A stretch of 13,224 nt of DNA from contig QMPB01000067.1 of NCBI GenBank assembly GCA_003648395.1, positions 1 to 13,224 of the forward strand, in the 5' to 3' direction. A program made the position numbers and the translations under genes. This stretch comes from Bacteroidota bacterium (GTDB lineage: Bacteria; Bacteroidota; Bacteroidia; Bacteroidales; UBA1556). Under the pieces are notes generated by a model, which worked only from the letters and a program-made list of their open reading frames with translations, was not told the DNA's origin and made no database searches. Shown one piece after another: positions 1-13,224 of this stretch (positions within the stretch are counted from its first letter, which is position 1; the number at the start of each line of letters is the position of its first letter).

Positions 1-4
1 CGTT

Positions 5-943
5 ATGTATAAATATTTATTTGGACCAGTTCCTTCACGAAGATTAGGTATGTCGTTGGGGGTTGATTTAGTTCCTAAAAAAGTATGTTCTCTTGACTGT
101 GTTTATTGTGAAGTGGGAAAAACTACAAAACTTACAATTGTGGAAAAGGAGTATATCCTTTTTGATAAAATAAAGGAAGAATTACTTAATTATTTCAATA
201 ATAATCCTGATCCTGATTATATCACTTTTTCGGGTTCTGGAGAGCCCACTTTAAATAGTAAGATAGGGGATATTCTTGGTTTTATTAGACAAAATAGACC
301 CAATATTCCGGTTGCTGTTTTAACAAATGGTACAATGCTATTTGATAAAAAGGTAAGAGAAGCAATAATTGATGCCGATGTTATTCTTCCTTCTTTAGAT
401 GCAGCAACACAAGAGGTATTTGAAAAAATAAATCGTCCTGCCAAGGGCCTCACTATTGATAAATATATAAAAGGAATTGTTGATTTCAAAAAAATATTTA
501 AAGGAAAATTATGGCTAGAAATTTTTATTTTACCAGGCTATAATGATTCAAAAAGCGAATTAATAGAATTAAAAAACGCAATTCAAAAGATAAATCCAGA
601 TTCCATTCAATTAAACACCCTGGATAGACCGGGCACGGTTTCTAATTTAAAAGGTGCAAGTAAAAAGGAATTGCAGGATATAATAAATTTTTGGAAATTA
701 GATAATGTGCAAATAATTTCTTCAGCCCCTGAAAGGAAAAATATTCAATCATATCGTACTGATATTGAAACGGCTATTGTTGAAACAATTTTACGACGAC
801 CCTGTACTCTCGACGATTTAAATAAAATATTGGGTATTCATGTTAATGAAATTAATAAATACCTTGATGTTTTAGATGCAGAAAACATTATAGAATCAGT
901 AGAGCAAGAAAGGGGAATATTTTATCAAATAAAGGAGAAATAA
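5..943 (+). CDS. Radical SAM protein, wyosine-synthase-like (COG0731-type)
   Basis: A 312-residue radical SAM enzyme. The iron-sulfur motif CxxxCxxC is at C28, C32 and C35 (CSLDCVYC). It is preceded by the GPVPSRRLG signature at residues 7-15, which marks the group related to archaeal tRNA-Phe imidazoG37 (wyosine) synthase Taw1. The glycine-rich SAM-binding stretch SGSGEPTL is at residues 76-83 and LTNGT at 106-110. Residues about 254-312 look like a small winged-helix tail, which is common in bacterial members. The wyosine base is archaeal/eukaryotic, so the substrate of bacterial members is not established and I do not assign a reaction. The start is chosen because the GPVPSRRLG motif normally lies within the first ten or so residues. 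The promoter lies outside the window. The next gene follows after 27 bases on the same strand, so co-transcription with two metal transporters is likely. Family is confident; function is unknown. Confidence 0.9.
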   Translation: MYKYLFGPVPSRRLGMSLGVDLVPKKVCSLDCVYCEVGKTTKLTIVEKEYILFDKIKEELLNYFNNNPDPDYITFSGSGEPTLNSKIGDILGFIRQNRPNIPVAVLTNGTMLFDKKVREAIIDADVILPSLDAATQEVFEKINRPAKGLTIDKYIKGIVDFKKIFKGKLWLEIFILPGYNDSKSELIELKNAIQKINPDSIQLNTLDRPGTVSNLKGASKKELQDIINFWKLDNVQIISSAPERKNIQSYRTDIETAIVETILRRPCTLDDLNKILGIHVNEINKYLDVLDAENIIESVEQERGIFYQIKEK

Positions 944-970
944 TAGAATACTTGATAAAGAGATTAAGCT

Positions 971-2002
971 ATGAATATCGAAATATATAGTATATTTAAA
1001 CAAGCGATTACTATAACAAGTTTTGTTTTTGTGATGATGTTGGTTATAGAATATATTAACGTACAAACGAGTGGTTTATGGATAAATATTGTTACAAAAA
1101 ATAAATGGAAACAATATTTATTTGCAGCGCTATTGGGTGTTATTCCTGGGTGCCTTGGTGCTTTTACAGCTGTTGCTCTTTTTTCTCATAGGATGATTTC
1201 TTTTGGAGCAATTGTTACTACTATGATTGCTACAAGTGGAGATGAGGCCTATGTTATGTTTTCTATGTTTCCACAAAAAGCAGCTCTATTAACCTTAATT
1301 TTATTTGTTTTAGCTATTATTGCAGGATACTTGACTGATAAATTTTATACTCCAAAAAAGATATTAAGCAAATTTTCAGATAATGATTTCCCCTTACACA
1401 CTGAGGAAAAGTGTAATTGTTTTCAAAAAAACATGTTTTGGCATCAATTGTTTCATCCTTCGTTTCATCGTTTATTCTTGGTGACATTAATAATTATTTT
1501 ATTAACCAGTTTCTCTGTTGGTTGGATAGCAGGAAATGCGAAGTTGTGGATTAGAATTTCAATAATAACGGTTGTTAGTTTTTCCGTATTTATTGCTATT
1601 AGTGTACCAAATCATTTTTTAGAGAAACACTTATGGGGGCATATTGTTAAAAAACACCTTGGAAGAATATTTTTATGGACATTTGGTACTTTGTTAGTTT
1701 TTGGCATATTAGTAAGTTATATTGATATAGAATCGTGGATGTCGACTAATATGTTTATTGTATTACTTTTTGCTATTTTAATAGGTATTATTCCAGAATC
1801 GGGACCACACTTGATTTTTGTAACATTATTTGCACAAGGGAGTATTCCCTTTAGTATTTTATTGGCAAGCTCAATTGTTCAAGACGGACATGGGATGCTT
1901 CCATTGCTTGCAGAATCGAGAAGATCTTTCTTTGCTATAAAAGCTGTTAATATAATATATGCTCTTATTATAGGAATAGGAGGTTATTTGGTTGGCTTAT
2001 AA
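971..2002 (+). CDS. Putative manganese transporter / ArsP_2-type heavy-metal exporter
   Basis: A 343-residue integral membrane protein with roughly ten hydrophobic segments. It shows an internal two-fold repeat. GVIPGCLGAF (56-65) in the first half is echoed by GIIPESGPH (272-280) in the second. ATSGDEAYVM (87-96) is echoed by QDGHGMLPLLAES (304-316). Paired polar motifs inside membrane segments of this kind are typical of transporters with inverted repeats. The central hydrophilic loop (about 128-166) carries potential metal ligands: CNC at 148-150 and histidines at 143, 158, 162 and 166. The sequence matches my recollection of the family annotated as 'putative 10TM heavy-metal exporter, ArsP_2' or 'putative manganese transporter'. 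The substrate is inferred from family naming, not from the sequence. It lies 27 bases after the radical SAM gene and 21 bases before a ZIP transporter gene, which supports a role in divalent metal balance. No Shine-Dalgarno sequence precedes the ATG, as usual in Bacteroidota. Confidence 0.8.
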   Translation: MNIEIYSIFKQAITITSFVFVMMLVIEYINVQTSGLWINIVTKNKWKQYLFAALLGVIPGCLGAFTAVALFSHRMISFGAIVTTMIATSGDEAYVMFSMFPQKAALLTLILFVLAIIAGYLTDKFYTPKKILSKFSDNDFPLHTEEKCNCFQKNMFWHQLFHPSFHRLFLVTLIIILLTSFSVGWIAGNAKLWIRISIITVVSFSVFIAISVPNHFLEKHLWGHIVKKHLGRIFLWTFGTLLVFGILVSYIDIESWMSTNMFIVLLFAILIGIIPESGPHLIFVTLFAQGSIPFSILLASSIVQDGHGMLPLLAESRRSFFAIKAVNIIYALIIGIGGYLVGL

Positions 2003-2023
2003 AAAACATGAAATATAAAAACT

Positions 2024-2839
2024 ATGACTTTAGAATGGTTACTTGAATATAATCCTGTATTATTAGCTCTCTTTGCGGGTATATTTACGTGGAGTATAAC
2101 AGCATTAGGAGCAGCAATGGTTTTTTTCTTTAAAGAGATTAAACCAAAGTTTTTTAATTTAATGCTTGGTTTTGCAGCAGGAATAATGATCGCTGCGAGT
2201 TTTTGGTCTTTACTAATGCCGGCAATTGAAATGTCGGAAAAACAAGGAGGCGTGGCGTGGTTGCCAGCAGCAATAGGTTTTTTATCTGGAGGAGCTTTTT
2301 TATTATTAATTGATAAAATACTTCCGCATTTACACTTAGGCCTACCTATGAAAAAAGCCGAAGGAATAAAAACCTCGTGGCAACGTAGTACGTTACTCGT
2401 TCTTGCAATAACTTTACATAATATTCCTGAAGGACTGGCTGTTGGTGTTGCTTTTGGTGCCTTAGCTAATAATCCTGATATTGGAACTTTAGCTGGAGCC
2501 ATCACTCTTGCAGTTGGTATTGGCCTACAAAATTTTCCTGAAGGAACAGCTGTTTCCGTTCCTTTGCGAAGAGAGGGATTATCACGACTAAAAGCATTTA
2601 ATTATGGACAATTATCAGGTCTAGTTGAACCTATTGCTGCTGTATTTGGGGCGTATTTAGTTTTGGCAATAACTCCAATCTTGCCTTATGCTCTTTCGTT
2701 TGCTGCTGGAGCAATGATATTTGTTGTTGTTGAAGAATTGATTCCAGAATCACAATCTGGAAACGAAACAGATTATTCAGCAGCGGGAGTAATGATAGGT
2801 TTTGTAATAATGATGATACTTGATGTTGCTTTGGGATGA
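2024..2839 (+). CDS. ZIP family divalent metal transporter (GufA/ZIP11-like)
   Basis: A 271-residue polytopic membrane protein of the ZIP family, which moves Zn2+, Mn2+, Fe2+ or similar ions into the cytoplasm. The diagnostic metal-site motifs are present: HNIPEG in TM4 (H132, N133, E136) and QNFPEG in TM5 (Q169, N170, E173). Acidic residues E237/E238 in TM6 match the binuclear site seen in bacterial ZIPs. The loop between TM3 and TM4 contains PHLHLG (101-106), a short histidine-bearing stretch at the usual position of the variable ZIP loop. Length and glycine-rich helices fit the GufA/ZIP11 branch. The start at 2024 is preferred because an ATG at 2008 opens a different frame that stops within 13 codons. 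It is the last gene of the plus-strand cluster and is followed directly by a hairpin overlapping its stop codon. Metal specificity cannot be read from the sequence. Confidence 0.92.
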   Translation: MTLEWLLEYNPVLLALFAGIFTWSITALGAAMVFFFKEIKPKFFNLMLGFAAGIMIAASFWSLLMPAIEMSEKQGGVAWLPAAIGFLSGGAFLLLIDKILPHLHLGLPMKKAEGIKTSWQRSTLLVLAITLHNIPEGLAVGVAFGALANNPDIGTLAGAITLAVGIGLQNFPEGTAVSVPLRREGLSRLKAFNYGQLSGLVEPIAAVFGAYLVLAITPILPYALSFAAGAMIFVVVEELIPESQSGNETDYSAAGVMIGFVIMMILDVALG

Positions 2840-2880
2840 AAAATTGGATTGGAAAATTAATAGATCCAAATTTTTCATTT
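2839..2880 (+). terminator. Candidate Rho-independent terminator after the ZIP gene
   Basis: The arms 2839-2849 (AAAAATTGGAT) and 2864-2875 (ATCCAAATTTTT) pair as an 11-bp stem with one bulged A at 2870 and a 14-base loop. A T-rich stretch (TTTTTCATTTTTG) covers the right arm and runs past it. The left arm starts in the stop codon of the ZIP gene, as is common for an operon end. The stem is AT-rich, so strength is uncertain. Confidence 0.55.
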
Positions 2881-2904
2881 TTGATTTAAAAGCTACAAGC
2901 TGTT

Positions 2905-2932
2905 AAATAAACAGAGTTGTTTATTTTTATTA
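2905..2932 (+). terminator. Second small hairpin with T-tract, backup terminator
   Basis: AAATAAAC (2905-2912) and GTTTATTT (2919-2926) form an 8-bp stem with a 6-base loop, followed by TTATTAC. It could be a second stop signal for the plus-strand operon. The stem is almost entirely A-T, so this is a weak call. Confidence 0.3.
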
Positions 2933-2935
2933 CTA

Positions 2936-2994
2936 TAAAAAAATAGCCATAAACACCCCTCCAATAAAAATTGAGAAAATACTTATGGCTATTA
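2936..2994 (-). terminator. Diverged copy of the serS terminator, wobble-paired on the minus strand
   Basis: In minus-strand RNA the arms 2973-2993 and 2942-2962 form a 21-position stem with one mismatch (2960/2975). Fourteen or fewer Watson-Crick pairs and seven G-U pairs hold it together, with a 10-base loop. The minus strand then runs into TTTTTTT (complement of 2937-2943). In plus-strand RNA the seven wobble positions become A-C mismatches and only an 11-bp outer stem remains. The right arm matches the arm of the serS terminator at 8535-8552 in 17 of 18 bases, so this is a duplicated terminator. It now lies downstream of the giant T9SS gene and probably ends its transcript. Confidence 0.65.
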
Positions 2995-3017
2995 TTATAT
3001 AATAATATTTATTATTC

Positions 3018-3077
3018 TTACTTTATATACTTAAATCCAGTATAAGGAACTAATGCTTTAGTGATTTTAATTCCTTG
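3018..3077 (-). pseudogene. Remnant of the serS 3' end (last ~19 codons)
   Basis: Read on the minus strand, this stretch encodes GIKITKALVPYTGFKYIK followed by a stop. That matches the C-terminus of the intact SerS in this window (GIRIPKALVPYTGFEYIK) in 15 of 18 residues. At DNA level, 3022-3059 and 8582-8619 differ at only two positions. Similarity fades at about 3070, and the frame meets a stop at 3081-3083, so no functional gene remains. The fragment keeps the same orientation and the same spacing to its hairpin as at the intact serS, so tail and terminator were duplicated or displaced as one unit. The two copies are direct repeats flanking the giant T9SS gene. Confidence 0.85.
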
Positions 3078-3196
3078 TTTTTAATGGGAAGCAAGTATTC
3101 GAGTTCAGCTTTATGGAGCTCACAGACTTAACTTATCTTGATAAATGTATAGCAGGATTTACCAAGGTTAGTAAAGCGTTAGGTGTATTGAAATAG
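3071..3196 (+). pseudogene. Possible C-terminal remnant of a PLP-dependent alpha-oxoamine synthase
   Basis: An open plus-strand frame of 41 codons ends at the TAG at 3194-3196. Its first ATG (3113) would give a peptide of only 27 residues. The translation contains NGKQVFEFSFMELTDL followed by TYLDKCIAGFTKVSKALGV and ends in LK. The wording, with an S-x-M step, an acidic/leucine-rich helix and an ending like F-x-K-V-x-K-x-L-G-V, resembles the C-terminal tail of alpha-oxoamine synthases (serine palmitoyltransferase, BioF or Kbl type). This rests on memory of the family and is unsearched. The body of the gene is missing. It begins exactly where the reverse-oriented serS remnant ends, so two gene tails are joined head to head, which marks a rearrangement point. 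Confidence 0.4.
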
Positions 3197-3307
3197 AAAA
3201 TTATATTAATTATATTTCCTTTTTTTGTTTATTGATATTTCCCTTCTATTATTTTTATATCTGCTGAATTTTTTTATTTCAAACCATTAAAGATTACTGT
3301 AAATTAA
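3197..3307. other. AT-rich non-coding spacer
   Basis: Very AT-rich DNA with T-runs (for example 3225-3237 and 3270-3280) and stops in all frames. No coding potential, recognisable RNA or clear promoter was seen. It separates the gene-tail scar from the terminator of the giant T9SS gene. Confidence 0.5.
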
Positions 3308-3343
3308 CAATCCCCCATATACATAATCATATATAGGGGATTG
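3308..3343 (-). terminator. Hairpin 25 bases after the T9SS cargo gene
   Basis: Arms 3308-3321 and 3330-3343 form a 14-bp stem (core AATCCCC / GGGGATT plus an AT extension) with an 8-base loop. In minus-strand RNA the single non-canonical position (3316/3335) is a G-U pair. It lies 25 bases beyond the stop of the minus-strand giant gene. The bases after it on the minus strand (TTAATTTAC) are only moderately U-rich, so it may terminate weakly or protect the mRNA 3' end. The displaced serS terminator further on could be the main stop. Confidence 0.6.
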
Positions 3344-3368
3344 AGTTATTAATTATTTTGAAAATACC

Positions 3369-6300
3369 TTATTCAAGTATTACTTTTTCCAAAAGAAATC
3401 CATCTGTTGTAATAATTTTTAATAGATATACACCATATGAATTATCACTAAGATCAATTATAATATTTTTACTCTTAGGAGAGTTCTTATATTCATTTAT
3501 CTTTTGACCGTGGACATTCATTACTTCAATATTTATAATGTTTTCACCGCTAATATTAATTATACCTTTAGTTGGATTGGGGAATATCTTAATAGAACTC
3601 TTAAAATCAGAGTTTGTTATTCCAACACTATTATAATAATAGTTTGAAGAGCTACTACTACATCCACTGCTATTGGTAACCTTTACGTAATAGTTACCAT
3701 TATTATTGGCGATATAATAATAGTTTGTTGCTCCACTAATTGCGCTGTTTGAATAATACCATTGATTACCTGCGCTACTTGAAGAAAATAAAGTATCAAA
3801 AGAATTACTAATTGTTGGTGTAGTAGGAGTATTATTTATCATTACGCCATAGTTATTTGAGTAAGGTCCTGTTCCACAATTATTTGTAGCAGAAACCTTT
3901 ATGTTTGTTTGACCCACATATTGATTATCCCAATTAATAACAGCATTAGTGCTATTTCCTGAAATAACACCAGCAGATGATGGACTTAAAGTCCAATTAT
4001 AAGAAGTAGCATAATTAGTTGGGCTAACATAATAGTTTGTGTTATTATTATTTTTACATAAACTATTTGGCCCTGTAGGAGTAGCTGTTGAACCAGGAAT
4101 TGCGTTTATTGAAACGTTAAGAGGACTTGATGCGCTACCATTACCACAGCTATTAGAACCCATAACTGTTACTGTAGTATTTCCTGTAAAAGTATTATTC
4201 CAATCCACAGTTGCAGTTACTCCATTACTAGTTATTACTCCTGCACTTGACGGACTTATTGTCCATTGGTAAGTACTTGCATTAGGAATGGATGTAGTAT
4301 TATATGTAGTATTTATAGGATTCACACATAATACACTTGTTCCTGTTGGAGTAGATGCCGCAACGGGCGTAGATCCGACATTAATAACTATAGAATCAGA
4401 ATTTAACCCACTTCCGCAAGTATTTGTTCCTTTTACTTGCACGTATGCAGTTCCTGTATAAGCACTTGCCCATGTTACAACTGCATTTGTTGTGCTTCCA
4501 CTAATTGTTCCTGCTGTTGATGGATATAAACTCCAAATATAAGCAAGAGCAGAAGTAGAACCAGTTGTTGAATAATTTGATGTTGTAATACTATTTGTAC
4601 AAATAGTAGAAGCTCCTGTTGGTATGGCAGCTTGAGAAGGTGAAGGATTTACCGTAATAACTTGACTTATAGAGTCAGAAAAAGCGCCATTATTAGCTAT
4701 TAGAGTTATTGTATAAATACCTGCTGATGTAAATGTTTTAGATAAATCTTGTGTTGTTGAAATTATGATTCCATTTTCTTTCCAGGTGTATGATGTGGCA
4801 TTATTAGAAGTATTAGTAAATGTAGTTTGAATGCCCGTACATAATAACGAGGAAGGTGTTGTGAACCCTGCTGTTACAGTAATAGTTGTAGAACCAAATA
4901 TATTAATATCATCAATATAAAGATTGTTTCCATAATTATCATAACCTTGGAAAGCGATAACTACATTGTCATTACCAGCATAAGCACTTATATCTATTGA
5001 ATCACAATCTGCACCTATTGCTGATCCGCACCATTCATTTGCTGATGTAGGAGTAAAGCTTGCACTTTGAGTATATGTTGCATCGGGAGCTGTTGCAAAA
5101 TTTCCCGTTCCTCCCTCACCATAAGAAGCTAATCTATTCCAAGTAACACCACAGTTACCAGAAATATATATTATTAACGAATCCGTTGAAGATGCACTAT
5201 ATCTTGTGTAAGCGTGTTTGTATTGTAATGTTGCTGTTACTAAAGAACTTAAGTTTATAGTAGGAGTAATAAAATCATCTCTTTGACCGGAGTGATTGTT
5301 ACTATAATAATTCATAGCAGCAGACCTTGTACTATTACCGTTTCCAGATGTGTTTACCAAAACCCAACTTGATAAATTATCAGGATTATTGGTTTTCCAA
5401 TTTGATAAGGTAGTAGATGTTGTTTCAAAATCTTCGATAAATGGAGTTTGAAAGCCGCCAACTTTTATAATATCATTAATTGTTTTTGTATCACTTCCGT
5501 TTCCATTAGTAGCAGTAAGGCTAACGTTATAATATCCTGAATTAGGAAATTTCACCTCAGGGTTTTGAGAGCTAGCACTTGTACCATTAATAAACGTTAC
5601 ATTGTTTGGAGTGAATACCCAATACCAAGATGTTGGAGAAAAGGATGAAGCATCAGTGAATAAAACTGTATCGCTGGTACAAATGAAGGTATTACTAGTA
5701 TTAAAACTAGTAAGTGGGGCACTTGAATTAGCGTCATATGGTTCAATTTCCCATAAGCCTCTTCCGTATGTTGCAGCTCTTAGTTTATTGTTTTGAGGAT
5801 TTGAATTGTAGTATATTTCCAATTCACCAATTCTAACTTTAGGTAAATTAGGGTTATATTCTTGCCAATTATCGGTACCATATTTATAATATACTCCAAG
5901 TTGAGTTCCTACATATAGCATTTCGCTAGAAGAAACTGTTGTGTCTTGTACTATTGAATATAAAGGAACACTTGGTAATCCTGTAGAAATATTAGTCCAG
6001 GTTGTTCCTCCATTGGTTGTTTTATATACATTATCTGAATTATAACCACTTAAAGTAACCCAAACTGTATTAGGGTCTGTACTTTTTATAGCAATATATG
6101 TAATACTTGAATAGCTAAAAGGCAGTGTTCCTGTTATAGTAGTCCAAGAAGTACCTCCATTTGTTGTTTTCCAAATATTTGATGGGTCAGCTACATATAG
6201 AACTGATGTATTTGAAGAAGAAATTGCCATTGAATTTATTTTGTCTGAACTATTCATAGTTGAAATCTTTGTCCACGAAGTGCCTTTGTTGGTTGTTTTC

Positions 6301-8036
6301 CAAATATCGGCATATCCCGCATAAAGTGTTGTATGGGTTACGGGGTCTATAATATATGGAGTAACCCAAGCGCCAACCACGTTTGGTGGAGTTATTGTAC
6401 TACTGTTTACCCAATGATTAGTTGTTCTTGCTAAATTGCCGTTTTGAGAAGATGCATATTGAGTATTTACATCTGTATAGTCAATTAAACACTCCATTCC
6501 ATCTCCACCATTTTCATCACTCCATGTTCCTGATGATAACAGTTTTGTGCCATTATCTTGAAGTCCAGTGATTGTTTCTGTAGCAACAGTTTTAGAAGTT
6601 CCTAATTTATACATTTGACTAATTATTAAGCCATTAGATTTATCAGTCCAGGTTAAGCCATCATCTGTTGATATGTAAATGCCACCATCATTACACTCAA
6701 ACAAATCACCATTGCTTCTATAAACTAGATTGTGTTTGTCAGCATGCGCAACAGCTTGATTAGCACCATCATACCAGTGATTTGCACAAGTCCATGCTGT
6801 CCCTCCGTTTGTACTTCTATGAGAATTTACCCCGCCGACTATCAATTTATTTGAATTTGAAGGTGATGTGGCTATTGATATATCATACCATCCTTGTCCA
6901 CCTAAGTCACTAGCATTAGCATTCCATCCCATTAAGTTAGTTGAACTGTATATATTTGTAAAGCTTAATCCAGAATTAGTAGATTTATATATACCTAAAA
7001 GACCATAATCTGTATTATTAGCAATCATTGCATAAACTATTGTTGAATCAGCATCGGTAACTGCTATTTCTGCCCTATACCCTGAAGTGTTTAAGGTATT
7101 AGTCCAAGTACTTCCCCAATTTGTGCTTGTATATATATCACCATATTTATCAGAACCGTATAATGTTTTAAATGAATTACCTTTATATTCTATATCTAAA
7201 AAAGCATCAGATGTTAAAAGGTTATTCCATGTTGTTCCTCCATTAGTTGTTTTATATACCCCATCATTAGTTGCTGCTATCAAAGTGTTGTCATCATTGG
7301 GGTCTAGTAAAAGCTTGTTTACTTTCTTGTTTTGTGATAAGTTATAATTTAATCCAGTGGTATTCCAAGTAAGGCCACCATCAATACTTTTTAATACACC
7401 AATACTTCTGCTTGTATATAATTTGTCTCTATCCCCAGTGGCAATATATATAGTATTAGACGTTGCATAATTAGTAGGAATAATAATAGAAGAAACTCCT
7501 AAAATATCATTTGAATCAGTCAAACATATCCAACTTGACCCATTATTAGAAGTTTTCCAAAGTCCCCCCTCAGGAGTTCCTACCCAATAAGTATTATTAT
7601 TAGTAGGATGAAATGCAATACAGTTTACTCTTCCAAGTCCATGGTAGCCACTTGTTGAGTTACTTGGCCCTAAGGAGGTCCAAGTGTTTGATGTTCCGGT
7701 AAGGGTTTGAATCCCTCCAGCTTGTTTTAAACTATTATAAACCTGCATTGCTGTTTGAGTAGGGAATTCTCCAGTTTCTTTATTTACCTGACTTTCCATA
7801 TTATATTCCCAACGTTTGAACTGCTTCCATCCAATTGCTTTTCTAGTTATTCCTTCTTTATCAATATAATGTCCGCTTCTGTCAAGGTTATACGGTTGCC
7901 AATACGTATTGAAAGCTGTTTGATAATCATAAAAATTATATTCTGTTTTGTTTTTTGGAAGGTTTTTAATCCAAGGCTGGGCTATTACTTGGCTAAATGA
8001 CCAAATAAGAGCTAAAATAAGTATAGTTCTACTCAT
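3369..8036 (-). CDS. Giant secreted T9SS cargo protein: Asp-box beta-propeller, PKD and Ig-like repeats
   Basis: A 1,555-residue exported protein. Residues 1-19 form a signal peptide (cleavage likely after VIA-19). Residues about 115-765 are a propeller region with ten Asp-box motifs of the form S/T-x-N/D-x-G-x-S/T-W at about 163, 217, 263, 304, 352, 408, 456, 581, 624 and 673, as in sortilin/Vps10 and BNR-repeat exo-enzymes. Residues about 775-860 are PKD-like. Residues 866-1050 resemble a choice-of-anchor/MAM-type jelly roll (starts FIEDFE, ends YIDDINIFG). Residues 1053-1130 are PKD-like, 1135-1403 hold three tandem repeats of about 89 residues, and 1404-1470 form one more Ig-like module. 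Residues about 1475-1555 are a type A T9SS sorting domain (IFPNPTKG, then GVYLLKI, ending KVILE). It is expected to cross the outer membrane by T9SS and be anchored or released. The propeller could bind or cleave glycans, or only bind; no catalytic residue can be assigned. It is monocistronic, flanked by serS-tail direct repeats, and no T9SS machinery gene is nearby. Confidence 0.93.
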   Translation of the reverse strand: MSRTILILALIWSFSQVIAQPWIKNLPKNKTEYNFYDYQTAFNTYWQPYNLDRSGHYIDKEGITRKAIGWKQFKRWEYNMESQVNKETGEFPTQTAMQVYNSLKQAGGIQTLTGTSNTWTSLGPSNSTSGYHGLGRVNCIAFHPTNNNTYWVGTPEGGLWKTSNNGSSWICLTDSNDILGVSSIIIPTNYATSNTIYIATGDRDKLYTSRSIGVLKSIDGGLTWNTTGLNYNLSQNKKVNKLLLDPNDDNTLIAATNDGVYKTTNGGTTWNNLLTSDAFLDIEYKGNSFKTLYGSDKYGDIYTSTNWGSTWTNTLNTSGYRAEIAVTDADSTIVYAMIANNTDYGLLGIYKSTNSGLSFTNIYSSTNLMGWNANASDLGGQGWYDISIATSPSNSNKLIVGGVNSHRSTNGGTAWTCANHWYDGANQAVAHADKHNLVYRSNGDLFECNDGGIYISTDDGLTWTDKSNGLIISQMYKLGTSKTVATETITGLQDNGTKLLSSGTWSDENGGDGMECLIDYTDVNTQYASSQNGNLARTTNHWVNSSTITPPNVVGAWVTPYIIDPVTHTTLYAGYADIWKTTNKGTSWTKISTMNSSDKINSMAISSSNTSVLYVADPSNIWKTTNGGTSWTTITGTLPFSYSSITYIAIKSTDPNTVWVTLSGYNSDNVYKTTNGGTTWTNISTGLPSVPLYSIVQDTTVSSSEMLYVGTQLGVYYKYGTDNWQEYNPNLPKVRIGELEIYYNSNPQNNKLRAATYGRGLWEIEPYDANSSAPLTSFNTSNTFICTSDTVLFTDASSFSPTSWYWVFTPNNVTFINGTSASSQNPEVKFPNSGYYNVSLTATNGNGSDTKTINDIIKVGGFQTPFIEDFETTSTTLSNWKTNNPDNLSSWVLVNTSGNGNSTRSAAMNYYSNNHSGQRDDFITPTINLSSLVTATLQYKHAYTRYSASSTDSLIIYISGNCGVTWNRLASYGEGGTGNFATAPDATYTQSASFTPTSANEWCGSAIGADCDSIDISAYAGNDNVVIAFQGYDNYGNNLYIDDINIFGSTTITVTAGFTTPSSLLCTGIQTTFTNTSNNATSYTWKENGIIISTTQDLSKTFTSAGIYTITLIANNGAFSDSISQVITVNPSPSQAAIPTGASTICTNSITTSNYSTTGSTSALAYIWSLYPSTAGTISGSTTNAVVTWASAYTGTAYVQVKGTNTCGSGLNSDSIVINVGSTPVAASTPTGTSVLCVNPINTTYNTTSIPNASTYQWTISPSSAGVITSNGVTATVDWNNTFTGNTTVTVMGSNSCGNGSASSPLNVSINAIPGSTATPTGPNSLCKNNNNTNYYVSPTNYATSYNWTLSPSSAGVISGNSTNAVINWDNQYVGQTNIKVSATNNCGTGPYSNNYGVMINNTPTTPTISNSFDTLFSSSSAGNQWYYSNSAISGATNYYYIANNNGNYYVKVTNSSGCSSSSSNYYYNSVGITNSDFKSSIKIFPNPTKGIINISGENIINIEVMNVHGQKINEYKNSPKSKNIIIDLSDNSYGVYLLKIITTDGFLLEKVILE
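3828..4634 (-). repeat. Three tandem ~89-residue Ig/PKD-like repeats within the cargo gene
   Basis: The repeats cover residues about 1135-1223, 1224-1313 and 1314-1403 of the giant protein. Each carries P-T-G-x-x-x-x-C near its start, a Y-x-W strand, then SPSSAGVI or PSTAGTI, a later V-x-W and a closing C-G-x-G. The two cysteines per repeat (for example C1237 and C1297) could form a disulfide. The repeats are clearly homologous but diverged at DNA level, so they are old duplications and not slippage products. Confidence 0.8.
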
Positions 8037-8076
8037 GAAAAGTGGTTTTAAGGATTGTTGTTATATGTTAATTAAA

Positions 8077-8100
8077 AGACTGTGAAATAAGAGACTGTGA
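8077..8100. repeat. Short direct repeat AGACTGTGA x2 in the leader of the cargo gene
   Basis: AGACTGTGA occurs at 8077-8085 and 8092-8100, offset by 15 bases, between the candidate -7 box and the start codon of the minus-strand giant gene. It may be a protein-binding pair or chance in AT-rich DNA. Confidence 0.4.
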
Positions 8101-8109
8101 TTTATTGAA

Positions 8110-8117
8110 CAAATATA
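8110..8117 (-). promoter_or_regulatory. Candidate Bacteroidota -7 box for the T9SS cargo gene
   Basis: The minus strand reads TATATTTG, a full match to the Bacteroidota -7 consensus TAnnTTTG. It lies about 74 bases upstream of the ATG at 8036. No good TTTG-type -33 element is seen 19-21 bases further upstream (only GTTAACC), so the call rests on the -7 box alone. No Shine-Dalgarno sequence precedes the ATG. Confidence 0.45.
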
Positions 8118-8159
8118 GTAATAATAATCAGTAGTGGTTAACTATTTTGATAAATAGAT

Positions 8160-8500
8160 GAATGTATTCTAAATTGCAACGGTAAATTACTAATACTCAA
8201 TATAATACGCCATGACATTATAAAAATAAATAATTATAATACGCAAATAGTCAGTGTTTTGCCTTAATTTTTTAGAGCTCAAACGCTTCAGGTTTACCCT
8301 TATTTGATTAGATATTATTGCTAGGCTTAGTCTGAGGTTCTTATTATTAATTTACTTTTAGGGTTTTTTTGCTATAGAGTTATAAATTAATAATTTACAA
8401 TATAAATGATACACCAATTACCAAAATCGATAAATAACAATAACCATAGGTGGAACTTATGGAATGAGTACTAAAAAACAGTGGAACATTGAAGGGTATT
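8160..8500. other. Non-coding stretch between the cargo gene and serS
   Basis: This AT-rich stretch has no credible gene: the longest ATG-led frames are very short (for example a 12-codon frame at about 8465) and lack family features. It contains TATAATACGC at 8204 and again near 8235, and a short motif at 8240-8262 that recurs at 10630-10648. No tRNA cloverleaf or riboswitch was recognised. Confidence 0.5.
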
Positions 8501-8554
8501 AAAAAAAGCCATAAGTGTTTTCTCAATAAAAAAAGAGAAAACACTTATGGCTTT
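8501..8554 (-). terminator. serS terminator, perfect long hairpin
   Basis: Arms 8507-8524 and 8535-8552 pair perfectly over 18 bp, extending to 20 bp with flanking A-T pairs, around a 10-base A-rich loop. Reading the minus strand, the hairpin starts 24 bases after the serS stop codon and is followed by TTTTTTT. This is a textbook intrinsic terminator. A diverged copy lies at 2936-2994 next to a serS-tail remnant. Confidence 0.9.
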
Positions 8555-8577
8555 ATAAAAAAGTTTTATAAAACGCC

Positions 8578-9849
8578 TTATTTTATATACTCAAATCCAG
8601 TATAAGGAACCAATGCTTTTGGAATACGAATTCCATCTGGAGTTTGGTTATTTTCGAGCAATGCTGCTACGATACGAGGTAGAGCCAAAGCGCTTCCATT
8701 AAGAGTATGAGCAAGTTTGGTTTTACCATTTTCATCTTTAAAGCGTAGTTTTAAGCGATTTGCTTGGTAAGATTCGAAGTTAGAAACCGAGCTAACCTCT
8801 AGCCAACGCTCTTGTGCTGCCGAATATACTTCCATATCGTAAGTAAGTGCTGCAGTAAAGCTTGTATCGCCACCACAAAGGCGTAATACGCGATAAGGTA
8901 ATTCTAGTTTTTTAAGAAGAGACTGCACATAATCGCTCATTTCTTCTAATCGAGCATAAGATTTATCTGGGTGTTCAATAACCACAATTTCTACTTTATC
9001 GAATTGATGAAGACGATTCAAACCACGAACATCTTTTCCGTATGATCCGGCCTCACGACGAAAGCATTGTGAATATGCGGTATTTCTGATGGGAAAATCT
9101 TTAGCATCAACAATAGTATCACGATATATGTTTGTAATAGGAACTTCGGCAGTAGGAATTAGGTATAAATCATCAACTCCCACATGATACATCTGCCCAT
9201 CTTTATCAGGCAATTGCCCTGTTCCGTAACCAGAGTCAGAATTTACCATCAAAGGAGGCTGCACCTCTCTAAAACCTACCGATGTAGCTTCGTCCAAAAA
9301 GAAATTGATAAGAGCACGTTGTAGGCGAGCACCCTGCCCTTTATAAACAGGAAAACCTGCGCCAGTAATTTTATTACCAAGCTCAAAATCTATAATATCG
9401 TATTTATCAGTTAGCTCCCAATGAGGTTTTGCACCATCATAAAGTTTAGGAATTTCTCCAACAGTTTTTATGGTTTCATTATCATTTTCTGAATTACCAG
9501 CAGGAACACTCTCGTGAGGAATATTTGGCACTTTTAATAATAAATCCGTAGTTTTATTTTTCAGATGAGCCAATTCTTCAGTTAAAGTTTTAGCTAATTC
9601 CTTTAAAGTACCAGTTTCTGCTTTTTTAGCATTAGCCTCCTCAATTCTCCCTGATTTAAAAAGTCCACCAATTTCTTTAGCAATATTTTTACTTTTTGCT
9701 AATGTTTCGTCAAGCTTTTTCTGAGTACTCTTTCTGGCCTCGTCAAAAGAAATAATATTATCTAAAATTTCAGTATTCTTGAAATTCTTAACGTTTAATA
9801 GTTTAATTACTTTTTCTTTATTTTCTTTTATAAATGGTATTAAAAGCAT
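8578..9849 (-). CDS. serS: Serine--tRNA ligase
   Basis: A 423-residue class II aminoacyl-tRNA synthetase that charges tRNA-Ser (and tRNA-Sec where present) with serine in the cytoplasm. The N-terminal 105 residues form the long antiparallel coiled coil that grips the tRNA variable arm (charged heptad-like stretch about 35-105). The catalytic core has TAE (233-235) for serine recognition. Motif 2 is at about 263-285, beginning FRREAGSYGKD. CGGDTSF is at 325-331, and motif 3 at 384-399 begins NGSALALPR. The length is normal for a bacterial SerRS, and the start sits 36 bases after the upstream hydrolase gene, so the two are probably one transcript. A perfect terminator follows. The last 18 codons and the terminator also exist as a degraded copy at 2936-3077, but this copy is complete. 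Confidence 0.98.
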   Translation of the reverse strand: MLLIPFIKENKEKVIKLLNVKNFKNTEILDNIISFDEARKSTQKKLDETLAKSKNIAKEIGGLFKSGRIEEANAKKAETGTLKELAKTLTEELAHLKNKTTDLLLKVPNIPHESVPAGNSENDNETIKTVGEIPKLYDGAKPHWELTDKYDIIDFELGNKITGAGFPVYKGQGARLQRALINFFLDEATSVGFREVQPPLMVNSDSGYGTGQLPDKDGQMYHVGVDDLYLIPTAEVPITNIYRDTIVDAKDFPIRNTAYSQCFRREAGSYGKDVRGLNRLHQFDKVEIVVIEHPDKSYARLEEMSDYVQSLLKKLELPYRVLRLCGGDTSFTAALTYDMEVYSAAQERWLEVSSVSNFESYQANRLKLRFKDENGKTKLAHTLNGSALALPRIVAALLENNQTPDGIRIPKALVPYTGFEYIK

Positions 9850-9885
9850 AATTTTATGGTATTAAAAGTGTTGTTAATCAGTTTA

Positions 9886-10542
9886 TTATAATTGTTCTGA
9901 AATACTTACAAAAGGATTATTAGTTTTCTCGTGACCGATGGTGGTACTTGGTCCGTGGCCTGATAATACTTTTACTCCACTAGGGAGCACATAAAGTTTA
10001 TCGATAATACTACGTGCAAGTAAGTCAAAATTCCCAGTTGGCAAATCTGTTCTACCAATACTTTCTCTAAAAAGCACATCACCAACAATTATAAACATAT
10101 CGTCTTTAGAATAAAAGCAAATACTACCATCGGCATGGCCAGGAGCATATATAACTTTAAGGCTACTATTTCCAAATTTAACAGTATCACCATCTTTGAC
10201 CGTAGTTTCTGGTTTTATAAGATTATCAAGAGAAAACCCCAAAGATTTGGCATGACTCTCAGCATTATCAAAAAACAAATCGCTATGTATACTTGCATAA
10301 GCTTTTATCCCATATTTAGTAATAATAGCATTATTACCAACAATATGATCTACATGTGCATGAGTATAATATAAGCCCTTAATTGTTAGATTTTCTTCAG
10401 AAATAAAATCAAATAATTCTACGTTTTCAGATTCATTACTATTACCAGCATCAATTATTATTGCTGATTTACTATCATCATACACAACGAAAGTATTTAG
10501 TTGAAATGGATTAAAAACAAATGTCTTTATTTTCATTTTCAT
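9886..10542 (-). CDS. Metallo-beta-lactamase-fold hydrolase (glyoxalase II-like)
   Basis: A 218-residue cytoplasmic hydrolase of the MBL fold, in the small glyoxalase II-like (YcbL/GloB-type) branch. The metal ligands are all visible: HAHVDH (H61, H63, D65, H66), H136 in APGHADGS, D155 in VGDVLF, and H196 in LSGHGPST. GRTDLPTGNF (163-172) is typical of this branch. Likely substrates are thioesters such as acyl-glutathione-like compounds, but no glutathione-binding C-terminal domain is present, so the true substrate is open. No signal peptide is seen. ATG codons exist at residues 1 and 3, and the first is used by default. It is the first gene of a probable two-gene minus-strand operon with serS, with a 36-base gap. 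Confidence 0.92.
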   Translation of the reverse strand: MKMKIKTFVFNPFQLNTFVVYDDSKSAIIIDAGNSNESENVELFDFISEENLTIKGLYYTHAHVDHIVGNNAIITKYGIKAYASIHSDLFFDNAESHAKSLGFSLDNLIKPETTVKDGDTVKFGNSSLKVIYAPGHADGSICFYSKDDMFIIVGDVLFRESIGRTDLPTGNFDLLARSIIDKLYVLPSGVKVLSGHGPSTTIGHEKTNNPFVSISEQL

Positions 10543-10624
10543 TTATATAAAATTCATAATGACTTACTAATTTATGTAAAATACACAATAAATGTATAAT
10601 ACCAATAGTAAGTGTATATTTATA

Positions 10625-10662
10625 ACAGCTACGCAAACAGTGTTTTACAATCTAATAGCTGT
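10625..10662. promoter_or_regulatory. Inverted repeat ACAGCTA...TAGCTGT between divergent genes
   Basis: ACAGCTA (10625-10631) and TAGCTGT (10656-10662) are perfect inverted repeats separated by 24 bases, in the 225-base region between the divergent hydrolase and envelope-protein genes. The intervening bases contain a motif shared with 8240-8262. It could be an operator or a weak hairpin. Evidence is limited to symmetry. Confidence 0.3.
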
Positions 10663-10684
10663 GATTATTATCGATAAAATTATA

Positions 10685-10717
10685 AATGAGTAATTTTCTC
10701 ATTATCCTGCAAAAATA
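10685..10717 (-). promoter_or_regulatory. Candidate promoter area of the hydrolase-serS operon
   Basis: The minus strand at 10717-10710 reads TATTTTTG, matching the -7 consensus TAnnTTTG. It would give a leader of about 160 bases before the ATG at 10542. Just downstream lies a small inverted repeat AATGAG / CTCATT (10685-10690 and 10698-10703, 7-base loop). No clear -33 element is present, so this is tentative. Confidence 0.25.
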
Positions 10718-10743
10718 ATAATTAACTTTGTTGGTTCTGAGAT

Positions 10744-10751
10744 TATATTTT
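10744..10751 (+). promoter_or_regulatory. Weak -7-like box before the envelope-protein gene
   Basis: TATATTTT matches seven of eight positions of TAnnTTTG and lies 16 bases before the ATG at 10768. That implies a very short leader. A TTTG occurs at 10727-10730, but the spacing of 13 bases is too short for the usual 19-21. Low confidence. Confidence 0.2.
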
Positions 10752-10767
10752 CACTGTAAATATTTTT

Positions 10768-13224
10768 ATGAATTTTTATTGCGGTTTTAAGGTTAATAAG
10801 TTGATTAGAATTATATTAGTTCTATTATTTGTTGCTGCAATAAAGCCAGTTTCTGCTCAGTTTTTCACAGGTTCGCAATTAGAATTTGGCAAAAACAGAG
10901 TACAATACACCAATGATAAAAGATGGAGCTATTATCGCTTCAATAAATTCGACACCTATTATTATAAAGAAAGCCATTCGTTGGCAATATACGCCTCGGC
11001 CTATGCCGACAAGCAAATGGCTATAATTGGTAAGAGAATAGATTTTAAAGCCGATAATAAAATAAGGTTTATAATTTTCAAAGATTTATCTGACCTTAAG
11101 GAAACAAATATTGGACTTTTAACTGACGAGCAATATAATGTTGGAGGAGTTACTCATGTTATTAATAATAAGGTTTTCGTGTATTTTAATGGTGTGCATC
11201 ACGATTTCGAAAATCAACTTAAAAGAGGCATTGCACAGGTATATCTCAATGAGTTATTATATGGTGGATCTACGGGCTCTAGAATTAAGAGTTCCATTCT
11301 TCTAGCTTTTCCTACATGGTATACCGATGGGTTGATAGCATATTTGGCAGAGGGGTGGAATACGACCATTGATGGTAAAATGCGTGAAGGAATCAAGACC
11401 GAGGCTTATAAGCAATTTGATAAGCTTAGTAGAGAAGAACAGGGTATTGTTGGGCACTCCATTTGGAAATTTATTGAAATTAAATATGGAGCAAAAACCG
11501 TTGCTGATATAATATATATGGCAAAGGTAAACCGTAATATAGAAAATGGTTTTTTATATGTTTTGGGTCTGTCGTACGAAGAGGTTATCGAAAGGTGGTT
11601 TAATTTTTATAAAAAGCGTTATACTCACGATTTAGAGAAATTTGAAGAGCCCGGTGTTTCATTTTTTAAGCGCAATAAAGTAAATATAAGATATAATAAT
11701 GCATGTATAAATGCTGATGGAGATCTTGTGGCTTATGTTACCAACGAAAAGGGTAAGGTGAAGGTAATAATCCAAGAAATAGAGAGTGGTAAAAAGCGCA
11801 AAATCATGAAATATGGTTATAAGCTTGACGAAAAAGTAGATTATGATTATCCATTATTATCATGGTCGCCAAGGGGAAATAACCTAGGAATTATTTTTGA
11901 AAAGAAGAAGGATAATTATTTTGTTACCTATGATTACGATACAAAAGATAGGCGAATAAAAGTGCTAGGTCATTTCGATAGAATTCATGATTTTTCGTAT
12001 AATAAAAGAGGAAATGAACTTGCAGTATCGGCAGTTAAAAATGGTCAGAGCGATATATTTATTGTGAGTGTGGCTGGTAATTCTTTTAAGCGAATTACGC
12101 AAGATGGTTATGATGATAGCTATCCGCGATTTGTGAATAATGGTAAGGCTTTGGTTTGGAGTTCTAATAGGATAGATGATACATTACGTATTATTAAACA
12201 GCGCGTTCATCGCATAGCAGAAGACACATTAAGGGGACAAAAATATAGTGATTTATTCTTTTACGATTTAGCAAAAGGCGGCAATGTGCTCCGTAGAATT
12301 ACCAATACCCCATTAAGTGATGAAAAGCAGGTAATGCCTGTTGCTTATAATACCTTTTCGTGGTTGAGTGATGAAAATGGAGTTTATAATAGATATATTG
12401 GACGATTTGATAGCACCATTAGTTTTATTGATACGGCTACTCATTATCGATATTTCACTAAGTATTTTGCTACTACAAATTTTAATTCAAATATTCTGGA
12501 GCAGGAATATAGCACCTATTCTGGAAAATATACAGAAATAGTGGAAGTAGATGGGCGAACGAAATTATATATTCATGAAATACCAGATTTAGAAGATTAT
12601 AGTAGGTTAAAGTTATCTTCGACAGCTTATATTTCTGAAGAAACTTCTAAGTTAAAAAGATCTATTGTAAGAGAAAAAATCAGGCAAGACCTTTTGGATA
12701 AAATTGCAGAAGGAGATACTAGTAAAGCTGTGGCTAAGGCTGTAAAAAAGCTTGTGCCAAAAAGAAAAAAGAGATTTAAAGTTGTAACTGTTGATCAAAA
12801 AAACAAGCCCACAACAAAGAGTGTTGATATAAACAATTATGATTTTAATAGCGATAATAAGGAAGATAAATCGTCGCAAGTGGCACTTGCAAGTGCAAGG
12901 CAAAGAGGTCCTGCCGACGAAATAAGAGCGGCATATAATTCGCGCCCTTATGATGTGCGATACGATGTTTCGCAGGTGGTTTCACAAGTGAACTTCAATT
13001 ATTTAAACTATGGATACCAACCATTTACAAATCCTAAAACACCAATTTATATTACCAATAATTTCTCTGCTTTAATAAAGTTGGGTATTATGGATTTATT
13101 TGAAGATTATAGGCTTGTAGGAGGAGTTAATATAAAACCAAACCTTAAGAATAATGAGTATTTTCTTACTTTTTCTGATTATAAGAACCGAATTGATAAG
13201 GATTATACTTTCCATAGAAACATA
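10768..13224 (+). CDS. Partial large envelope protein: degenerate peptidase-MA-like domain plus TolB/PD40-like propeller
   Basis: The first 819 codons of a gene that runs off the window end in frame, with no stop. Residues 1-30 form a signal peptide (hydrophobic core 13-24, cleavage likely after VSA-30, next residue Q). Residues about 60-285 resemble the gluzincin peptidase-MA-like domain: LKRGIAQVYLNELL (151-164) lies where HExxH is expected, followed by FPTWYTDGLIAYL (181-193) where active members have P-x-W-x-x-E-G-x-A-x-Y. Both zinc histidines are absent and the glutamate is D187, so catalysis is unlikely. Residues about 310-550 are a TolB/PD40-like propeller (SWSPRGN at 365, SDIFIVS at 428, SDLFFYD at 494). 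Residues 625-672 are a highly basic, helix-like linker. From about 740 the pattern suggests the start of an outer-membrane beta-barrel or surface-antigen-like region. The start is fixed by the signal peptide. Similar propeller-plus-barrel proteins occur across Bacteroidota, usually without an assigned role. Confidence 0.75.
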   Translation, partial: MNFYCGFKVNKLIRIILVLLFVAAIKPVSAQFFTGSQLEFGKNRVQYTNDKRWSYYRFNKFDTYYYKESHSLAIYASAYADKQMAIIGKRIDFKADNKIRFIIFKDLSDLKETNIGLLTDEQYNVGGVTHVINNKVFVYFNGVHHDFENQLKRGIAQVYLNELLYGGSTGSRIKSSILLAFPTWYTDGLIAYLAEGWNTTIDGKMREGIKTEAYKQFDKLSREEQGIVGHSIWKFIEIKYGAKTVADIIYMAKVNRNIENGFLYVLGLSYEEVIERWFNFYKKRYTHDLEKFEEPGVSFFKRNKVNIRYNNACINADGDLVAYVTNEKGKVKVIIQEIESGKKRKIMKYGYKLDEKVDYDYPLLSWSPRGNNLGIIFEKKKDNYFVTYDYDTKDRRIKVLGHFDRIHDFSYNKRGNELAVSAVKNGQSDIFIVSVAGNSFKRITQDGYDDSYPRFVNNGKALVWSSNRIDDTLRIIKQRVHRIAEDTLRGQKYSDLFFYDLAKGGNVLRRITNTPLSDEKQVMPVAYNTFSWLSDENGVYNRYIGRFDSTISFIDTATHYRYFTKYFATTNFNSNILEQEYSTYSGKYTEIVEVDGRTKLYIHEIPDLEDYSRLKLSSTAYISEETSKLKRSIVREKIRQDLLDKIAEGDTSKAVAKAVKKLVPKRKKRFKVVTVDQKNKPTTKSVDINNYDFNSDNKEDKSSQVALASARQRGPADEIRAAYNSRPYDVRYDVSQVVSQVNFNYLNYGYQPFTNPKTPIYITNNFSALIKLGIMDLFEDYRLVGGVNIKPNLKNNEYFLTFSDYKNRIDKDYTFHRNI

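Follow-up and report, generated by a model that had tools for sequence, protein, structure and literature searches.

A serS-tail direct repeat around a variable T9SS cargo gene in a Bacteroidota genome: a probable scar of an old tandem duplication

The attB site of some integrative elements lies at the 3′ end of a conserved gene. The locus described here, in a window of 13,224 nucleotides (the whole stretch of DNA that was analysed), resembles such elements in that the gene end is restored, the displaced tail forms a direct repeat and a relative has the site empty. Unlike them, it has no integrase, carries a terminator inside the homology and has its displaced tail fused to the tail of another gene. 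A literature search that covered titles and the starts of abstracts, with most subscription papers outside its scope, found no natural integrative element at serS; the L54a attB downstream of serS in Staphylococcus aureus is an engineered and not a natural site in the section of PMC3274448 that describes it. Tandem duplications provide a second point of comparison. In the excerpts of PMC9997567 (Acinetobacter) and PMC11111574 (Escherichia coli) on which we draw, bacterial duplications arise at little or short homology, and those of Acinetobacter predominantly use 0–5 bp of identity (PMC9997567). To the extent of these excerpts, the duplications of both genera show the same head-to-tail junction of distant sites with little or no common sequence as is seen here, and in both later recombination between the repeats alters copy number, as is likewise proposed for this locus. 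They differ in being fresh, selected repeats (PMC9997567 and PMC11111574, same excerpts), whereas here we infer a duplication from short, diverged scars.

From left to right, the window carries genes for a radical SAM protein, an ArsP_2-type permease and a ZIP transporter on the plus strand, followed by the T9SS cargo gene, serS and a metallo-β-lactamase-fold gene on the minus strand (Table 1); a long plus-strand frame runs off its right edge. A direct repeat of the serS tail, in the same orientation and with a spacing of 5,560, flanks the T9SS gene (3017–3074 against 8577–8634, 58 nt, 84% identity). This bears out the initial annotation, in which a second copy of the serS tail, together with a hairpin, had been reported on the other side of the T9SS gene; the 38-base core with two differences that it had described (3022–3059 and 8582–8619) is recovered in the aligned copies, and a hairpin does lie beside each tail (8505–8554 and about 2942–2993). 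The longest identical run between the two tail copies is at most 18 consecutive bases. No tRNA or known RNA was found at the serS-tail site.

Homology of the repeat goes beyond the end of serS and continues, in diverged form, through the terminator. The right hairpin has a perfect 20-bp stem and the left one is imperfect. Aligned without the tails, the hairpins scored 25.8, and 200 dinucleotide shuffles reached at most 18.6; tail and hairpin together scored 56.4, and dinucleotide shuffles reached at most 14.4. The two window hairpins are homologous to each other. A looser control did not separate the repeat from chance (score 142 against a maximum of 159 in 1000 plain shuffles), but was uninformative because its gap costs are permissive for AT-rich DNA, and the dinucleotide-shuffle test replaced it. 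Fold z-scores were −11.5 for the right hairpin, −6.3 for the left and −2.4 for the hairpin of the near relative G001, so that the window pair folds far better than shuffles and the G001 hairpin modestly so. The left hairpin has drifted and pairs partly via G-U, and the stem of the right hairpin is perfect.

Table 1. Features of the window, with positions, strands and the basis of each assignment
Feature	Position	Strand	Basis
Radical SAM protein gene	5..943	+	Pfam PF04055; flank common to G001, 98.6%
ArsP_2-type permease gene	971..2002	+	Pfam PF11449; flank common to G001, 97.7%
ZIP transporter gene, convergent with serS	2024..2839	+	Pfam PF02535; 96.9% to G001
Left hairpin, terminator-like, counterpart of the single G001 hairpin	2938..2997		Empty-site alignment; fold z −6.3
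Displaced serS 3′ tail, reads GIKITKALVPYTGFKYIK stop	3018..3074	-	Direct repeat; translation; same type in G001 chimera
kbl (glycine C-acetyltransferase) 3′ tail and stop codon, joined to serS tail	3075..3196	+	76%/113 nt to G001 kbl
Post-join stretch, weak match to G001 post-join stretch	3197..3280		Score 20.8 vs shuffle maximum 19.4 (n=60)
Hairpin behind T9SS gene, its likely terminator	3308..3343	-	Fold z −4.0
T9SS cargo protein, 1,555 aa, PKD repeats and Por_Secre_tail	3369..8036	-	ORF list and HMM
Right hairpin with a perfect stem of 20 bp; diverged copy of the left hairpin	8505..8554		Fold; alignment
Intact serS 3′ tail, second direct-repeat copy	8578..8634	-	Repeat search; empty-site alignment
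serS, complete, 423 aa	8578..9849	-	NCBIfam TIGR00414
Metallo-β-lactamase-fold gene, flank common to G001	9886..10542	-	96.5% to G001

The nearest relative, G001, is the one genome on which comparison at this closeness rests. Its locus L143 (G001:C291:10001–26739) was used as the reverse complement, G1rc, which is oriented as the window. This contig carries the ZIP gene and serS with a single hairpin and a single serS tail, and the T9SS gene is absent from the interval; G001 is thus the relative that the initial annotation had proposed to look for, with serS beside the metal-transporter genes, a single tail and no cargo gene. Window positions 2–3059 align with G1rc 9738–12795 without gaps at 97.6% identity, and positions 8521–12562 align with G1rc 12694–16739 at 96.0%, the second alignment overlapping the first by the repeat; stretch by stretch, the flanks are 95–100% identical. 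Because the flank alignments overlap on G001 by the repeat, the 5.5 kb between the serS tails is a true presence/absence difference. The copies of the repeat are the edges of this difference between window and G001, which agrees with the earlier claim that the repeat bounds the T9SS-containing interval. The serS protein of G001 is 99.5–100% identical to that of the window. The single G001 hairpin corresponds to the left window hairpin, and the right window hairpin has diverged. In the single G001 tail the stop region is of the left type and the body that comes after it is of the right type, apart from three bases peculiar to G001. Either insertion or deletion would yield such a mixed-type tail, and gain in the window strain and loss in G001 therefore fit equally.

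The displaced serS tail is fused, at about position 3074, to the 3′ end of kbl, a join unseen in the initial annotation. Positions 3075–3196 close the plus-strand frame LVFNGKQVFEFSF...FTKVSKALGVLK and match the end of the G001 kbl gene (named by TIGR01822) at 76% over 113 nt (E 1.4e-15). The same chimera with the same junction occurs once in G001, at C291:20894–21035 (L143 10894–11035, minus strand), where it is placed behind kbl and a thioesterase gene, 7 kb from serS. The G001 copy lies just past the thioesterase terminator, with an in-frame stop within the serS tail and a truncated kbl tail. About 60 bases of kbl tail are missing from it, after which weak similarity resumes; the post-join stretches of window and G001, aligned alone, scored 18.8, a value exceeded by 2 of 1000 plain shuffles. 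The G001 chimera is best read as a second, more decayed scar. With at most 32 candidates scored per genome, a 435-base chimera probe gave some match in 9 of the 21 genomes searched, and a match reaching well into both halves in G001 only.

Window and G001 chimeras differ at 19 of 142 aligned bases (13%), more than the flanks do. The two longer intergenic stretches differ at 18 of 403 bases (Fisher p 0.0007, in a test that omitted two short intergenic stretches of 27 and 36 bases, both free of differences). This indicates an old or paralogous chimera, as opposed to the edge of a recent insertion. Judged by their divergence, the two chimera units predate the split of the strains or are paralogous; paralogy would suggest two or more join points, like those of an amplified array.

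The reading that we favour, and consider probable, is that the repeat is an old tandem-duplication join point, and that the variable T9SS gene lies between duplicated serS tails which could recombine with each other. In G001, kbl is directed to the right and serS to the left, so that the genes face each other, with the inner ends of their tails near G1rc 5060 and 12812, about 7.7 kb apart; a head-to-tail duplication of this segment, or a circle formed from it, would therefore yield the junction. As at a join point, the far end of the segment runs head to tail into its near end, serS tail first and kbl tail second, with at most about 4 bases in common at the join as read from the alignments. 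The ZIP gene and its terminator lie to the left of the window junction, as a duplication predicts, and the terminators are included in the homology and have diverged, as duplicated DNA would. Both outer parent genes are complete in G001; in the window serS is complete and kbl lies outside it.

Under this duplication model, kbl and serS would have lain a few kilobases apart in an ancestor, facing each other, and an illegitimate exchange would have linked two breakpoints, one within the 3′ end of serS and the other within that of kbl. The kbl–serS segment would thereby have been duplicated head to tail, or excised as a circle; both outer genes would have remained intact, and the new junction would have run from a serS tail into a kbl tail. 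Deletions may subsequently have trimmed the extra copies, so that the join points persist as short scars, one close to kbl in G001 and one between the ZIP and T9SS genes in the window; the model predicts another scar to the left of the window. The two serS tails with their terminators would now act as short direct repeats, and recombination between the tails could delete, or in reverse bring in, the intervening T9SS gene.

The fit of this duplication model is incomplete. No second thioesterase, response-regulator or ZIP remnant was found in the insert, which on L143 matches only the tail and terminator regions. Window positions 8037–8500 matched the G001 segment no better than shuffles (0.93 of 40 shuffles reached the score), and for positions 3197–3368 against the thioesterase gene the score was reached by 0.075 of 200 shuffles. 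What is duplicated is confined to the tails, the terminators and perhaps a short flank, and the remnants expected between the repeats at a join point are missing, which lowers the claim of the locus to the tandem-duplication class; the junction itself still fits. The thioesterase gene follows kbl in both G001 and G005 and is behind the kbl tail in neither scar, and several later deletions, at least three, are therefore needed. Nothing in the kbl–serS segment of G001 corresponds to the T9SS gene, whose own origin the duplication model leaves unexplained. As its alternative, the initial annotation had offered a segmental duplication followed by loss of the remainder of serS. That proposal is nearer to our reading than is the entry of an element, but needs amending: because the break lies inside serS, probably only the tail was duplicated. 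We had also considered the thioesterase gene, flanked by kbl tails in G001, as a second cargo inserted at kbl, an idea dropped on finding that G005 also has a thioesterase gene behind kbl.

The order of genes around serS varies within the genus. In four congeners (G002, G003, G005 and G009; loci L145, L149, L150 and L151), serS is directly followed by a same-strand TPR-type gene, assigned by Pfam for G002; in G001 and the window, serS is followed by the terminator and the convergent ZIP gene, and the TPR gene of G001 is on another contig. This adjacency, broken in G001, indicates that the serS end had already been rearranged in the lineage. The idea of the TPR gene as the original downstream neighbour of serS was considered and set aside; the TPR locus of G001 had no serS tail. 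Both kbl and serS were found in 6 further congeners, where they are on different contigs of draft assemblies, some of whose contig ends may adjoin.

Domain searches of the T9SS protein found three PKD_6 stretches, other PKD-type matches and a sorting domain that is of type A by its scores (42.6 bits to PF18962, cut-off 27, and 34 bits to TIGR04183, cut-off 23). There were also weak matches to cellulase, Ycf48 and a glycosylhydrolase model (98.8 bits, below the cut-off of 175), all of which we take to be beta-propeller-type proteins. Compared with known T9SS cargo, the protein has the same PKD repeats and C-terminal type A sorting domain, showed nothing unusual and has many relatives, 4,718 of the 7,994 scored candidates having E ≤ 1e-50. 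Full-length paralogues with 57–61% identity by tblastn occur in G001 (C321:2203–6813, L144) and G009 (C32, L152 6629–11311), each presumably near a SAM-hydrolase-like gene. These paralogues are at another locus, and the family therefore has at least two loci in the genus. A tree of 25 rows, comprising 22 sequences from the best 120 of the 4,718 matches and three local sequences, groups the window protein with P0002–P0008 (74–77% identity) and P0009 (69%); the tree cannot tell gain from loss.

A rather unlikely alternative is that a fragment from a related species, with the T9SS gene between serS tails, was imported, the tails and terminators having served as homology arms. It would account for the position of the T9SS protein in the tree, close to P0002–P0008 and apart from the C321 paralogue of G001, and for the divergence of the chimera from G001, which exceeds that of the flanks. 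Differences from G001 are also seen in the right hairpin and in the final bases of the right tail, whereas the 167 preceding serS bases are identical, but the differences cluster only weakly at the serS end (4 within the final 45 nt, P 0.05). The GC content of the T9SS gene (33.8%) falls inside the range of its neighbours (30–38%), and import alone does not explain the serS/kbl chimera.

The initial annotation had leaned towards an integrative element that entered serS at its 3′ end, and this was not supported. In this explanation, which we regard as improbable, a non-autonomous element with the T9SS gene would have entered the serS 3′ end, restored the gene and displaced its tail, its integrase being lost or external. 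The empty site in G001, the direct repeat of a gene end and the restored serS end are what such an element would leave; the repeat, however, continues through the terminator, and the kbl tail to which the displaced tail is fused stays unexplained. The insert has no integrase ORF, as had been said: positions 3018–8620 hold one long ORF, the T9SS gene, the other listed ORFs being 64–86 aa, antisense to it and overlapping it. Nor did the insert match any record in the phage and plasmid collections. G001, a genome 96% complete, had two Phage_integrase matches in a recombinase search confined to that family, and both are XerC/XerD-like tyrosine recombinases: the best NCBIfam match of the first is XerD (330.6 bits, cut-off 329.6) and that of the second XerC (303.5 bits, below the cut-off of 335.15). 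Against the integron integrase model they scored 127.6 and 111.4 bits (cut-off 265), which does not make either an integron integrase. The serS 3′ end was also rejected as a general att site. None of 80 other serS loci (from 80 of 568 relatives, with as much as 10 kb of downstream DNA, or less where a contig ended) had a second tail, and the best match, 27 of 42 bases, equalled the best on the opposite strand.

It may also be imagined, with little confidence, that the kbl–serS interval is a homology-driven cassette array, an integrase-free analogue of an integron in which single genes are swapped by ordinary recombination. We hold it similarly doubtful that the chimera would be the exchange site recurring between blocks, these being the thioesterase gene, the regulator to ZIP stretch and the T9SS gene. 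The array is thinly supported because its basis is two chimeras and one presence/absence difference. Even less probable is a complete second serS, or a serS and kbl pair, formerly present at this place and since decayed to a tail. The window tail still reads as serS codons with a stop, as decay would leave it, but in window and G001 alike the junction to kbl falls at one and the same serS position, which whole-gene decay does not predict. A full serS match was found exactly once in 10 of the 11 genomes of the genus and not in G011, with a further weak match in G007 to a separate frame of 698 aa. The serS-tail pattern, with up to 3 mismatches allowed, occurred in these 11 genomes at 7 places in 6 genomes, twice only in G001, with no match in the other 5. 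Chimeric assembly of metagenome reads is scarcely credible: most of the listed relatives are metagenome-assembled by title, but the tail copies share no identical run longer than 18 bases, the flanks on either side match one and the same near relative, and a JGI contig of a different length (10,724 bases) is reported to encode an identical T9SS protein.

An element-like signature, in which a tail, cargo, a second tail and an empty site in a relative occur together, can plausibly arise without a mobile element. Scans for integrative elements that are based on displaced gene tails alone could be misled at a locus such as this. Under the favoured reading of the repeat as an old duplication join point, the locus suggests a route by which single surface-protein genes may come and go between strains.
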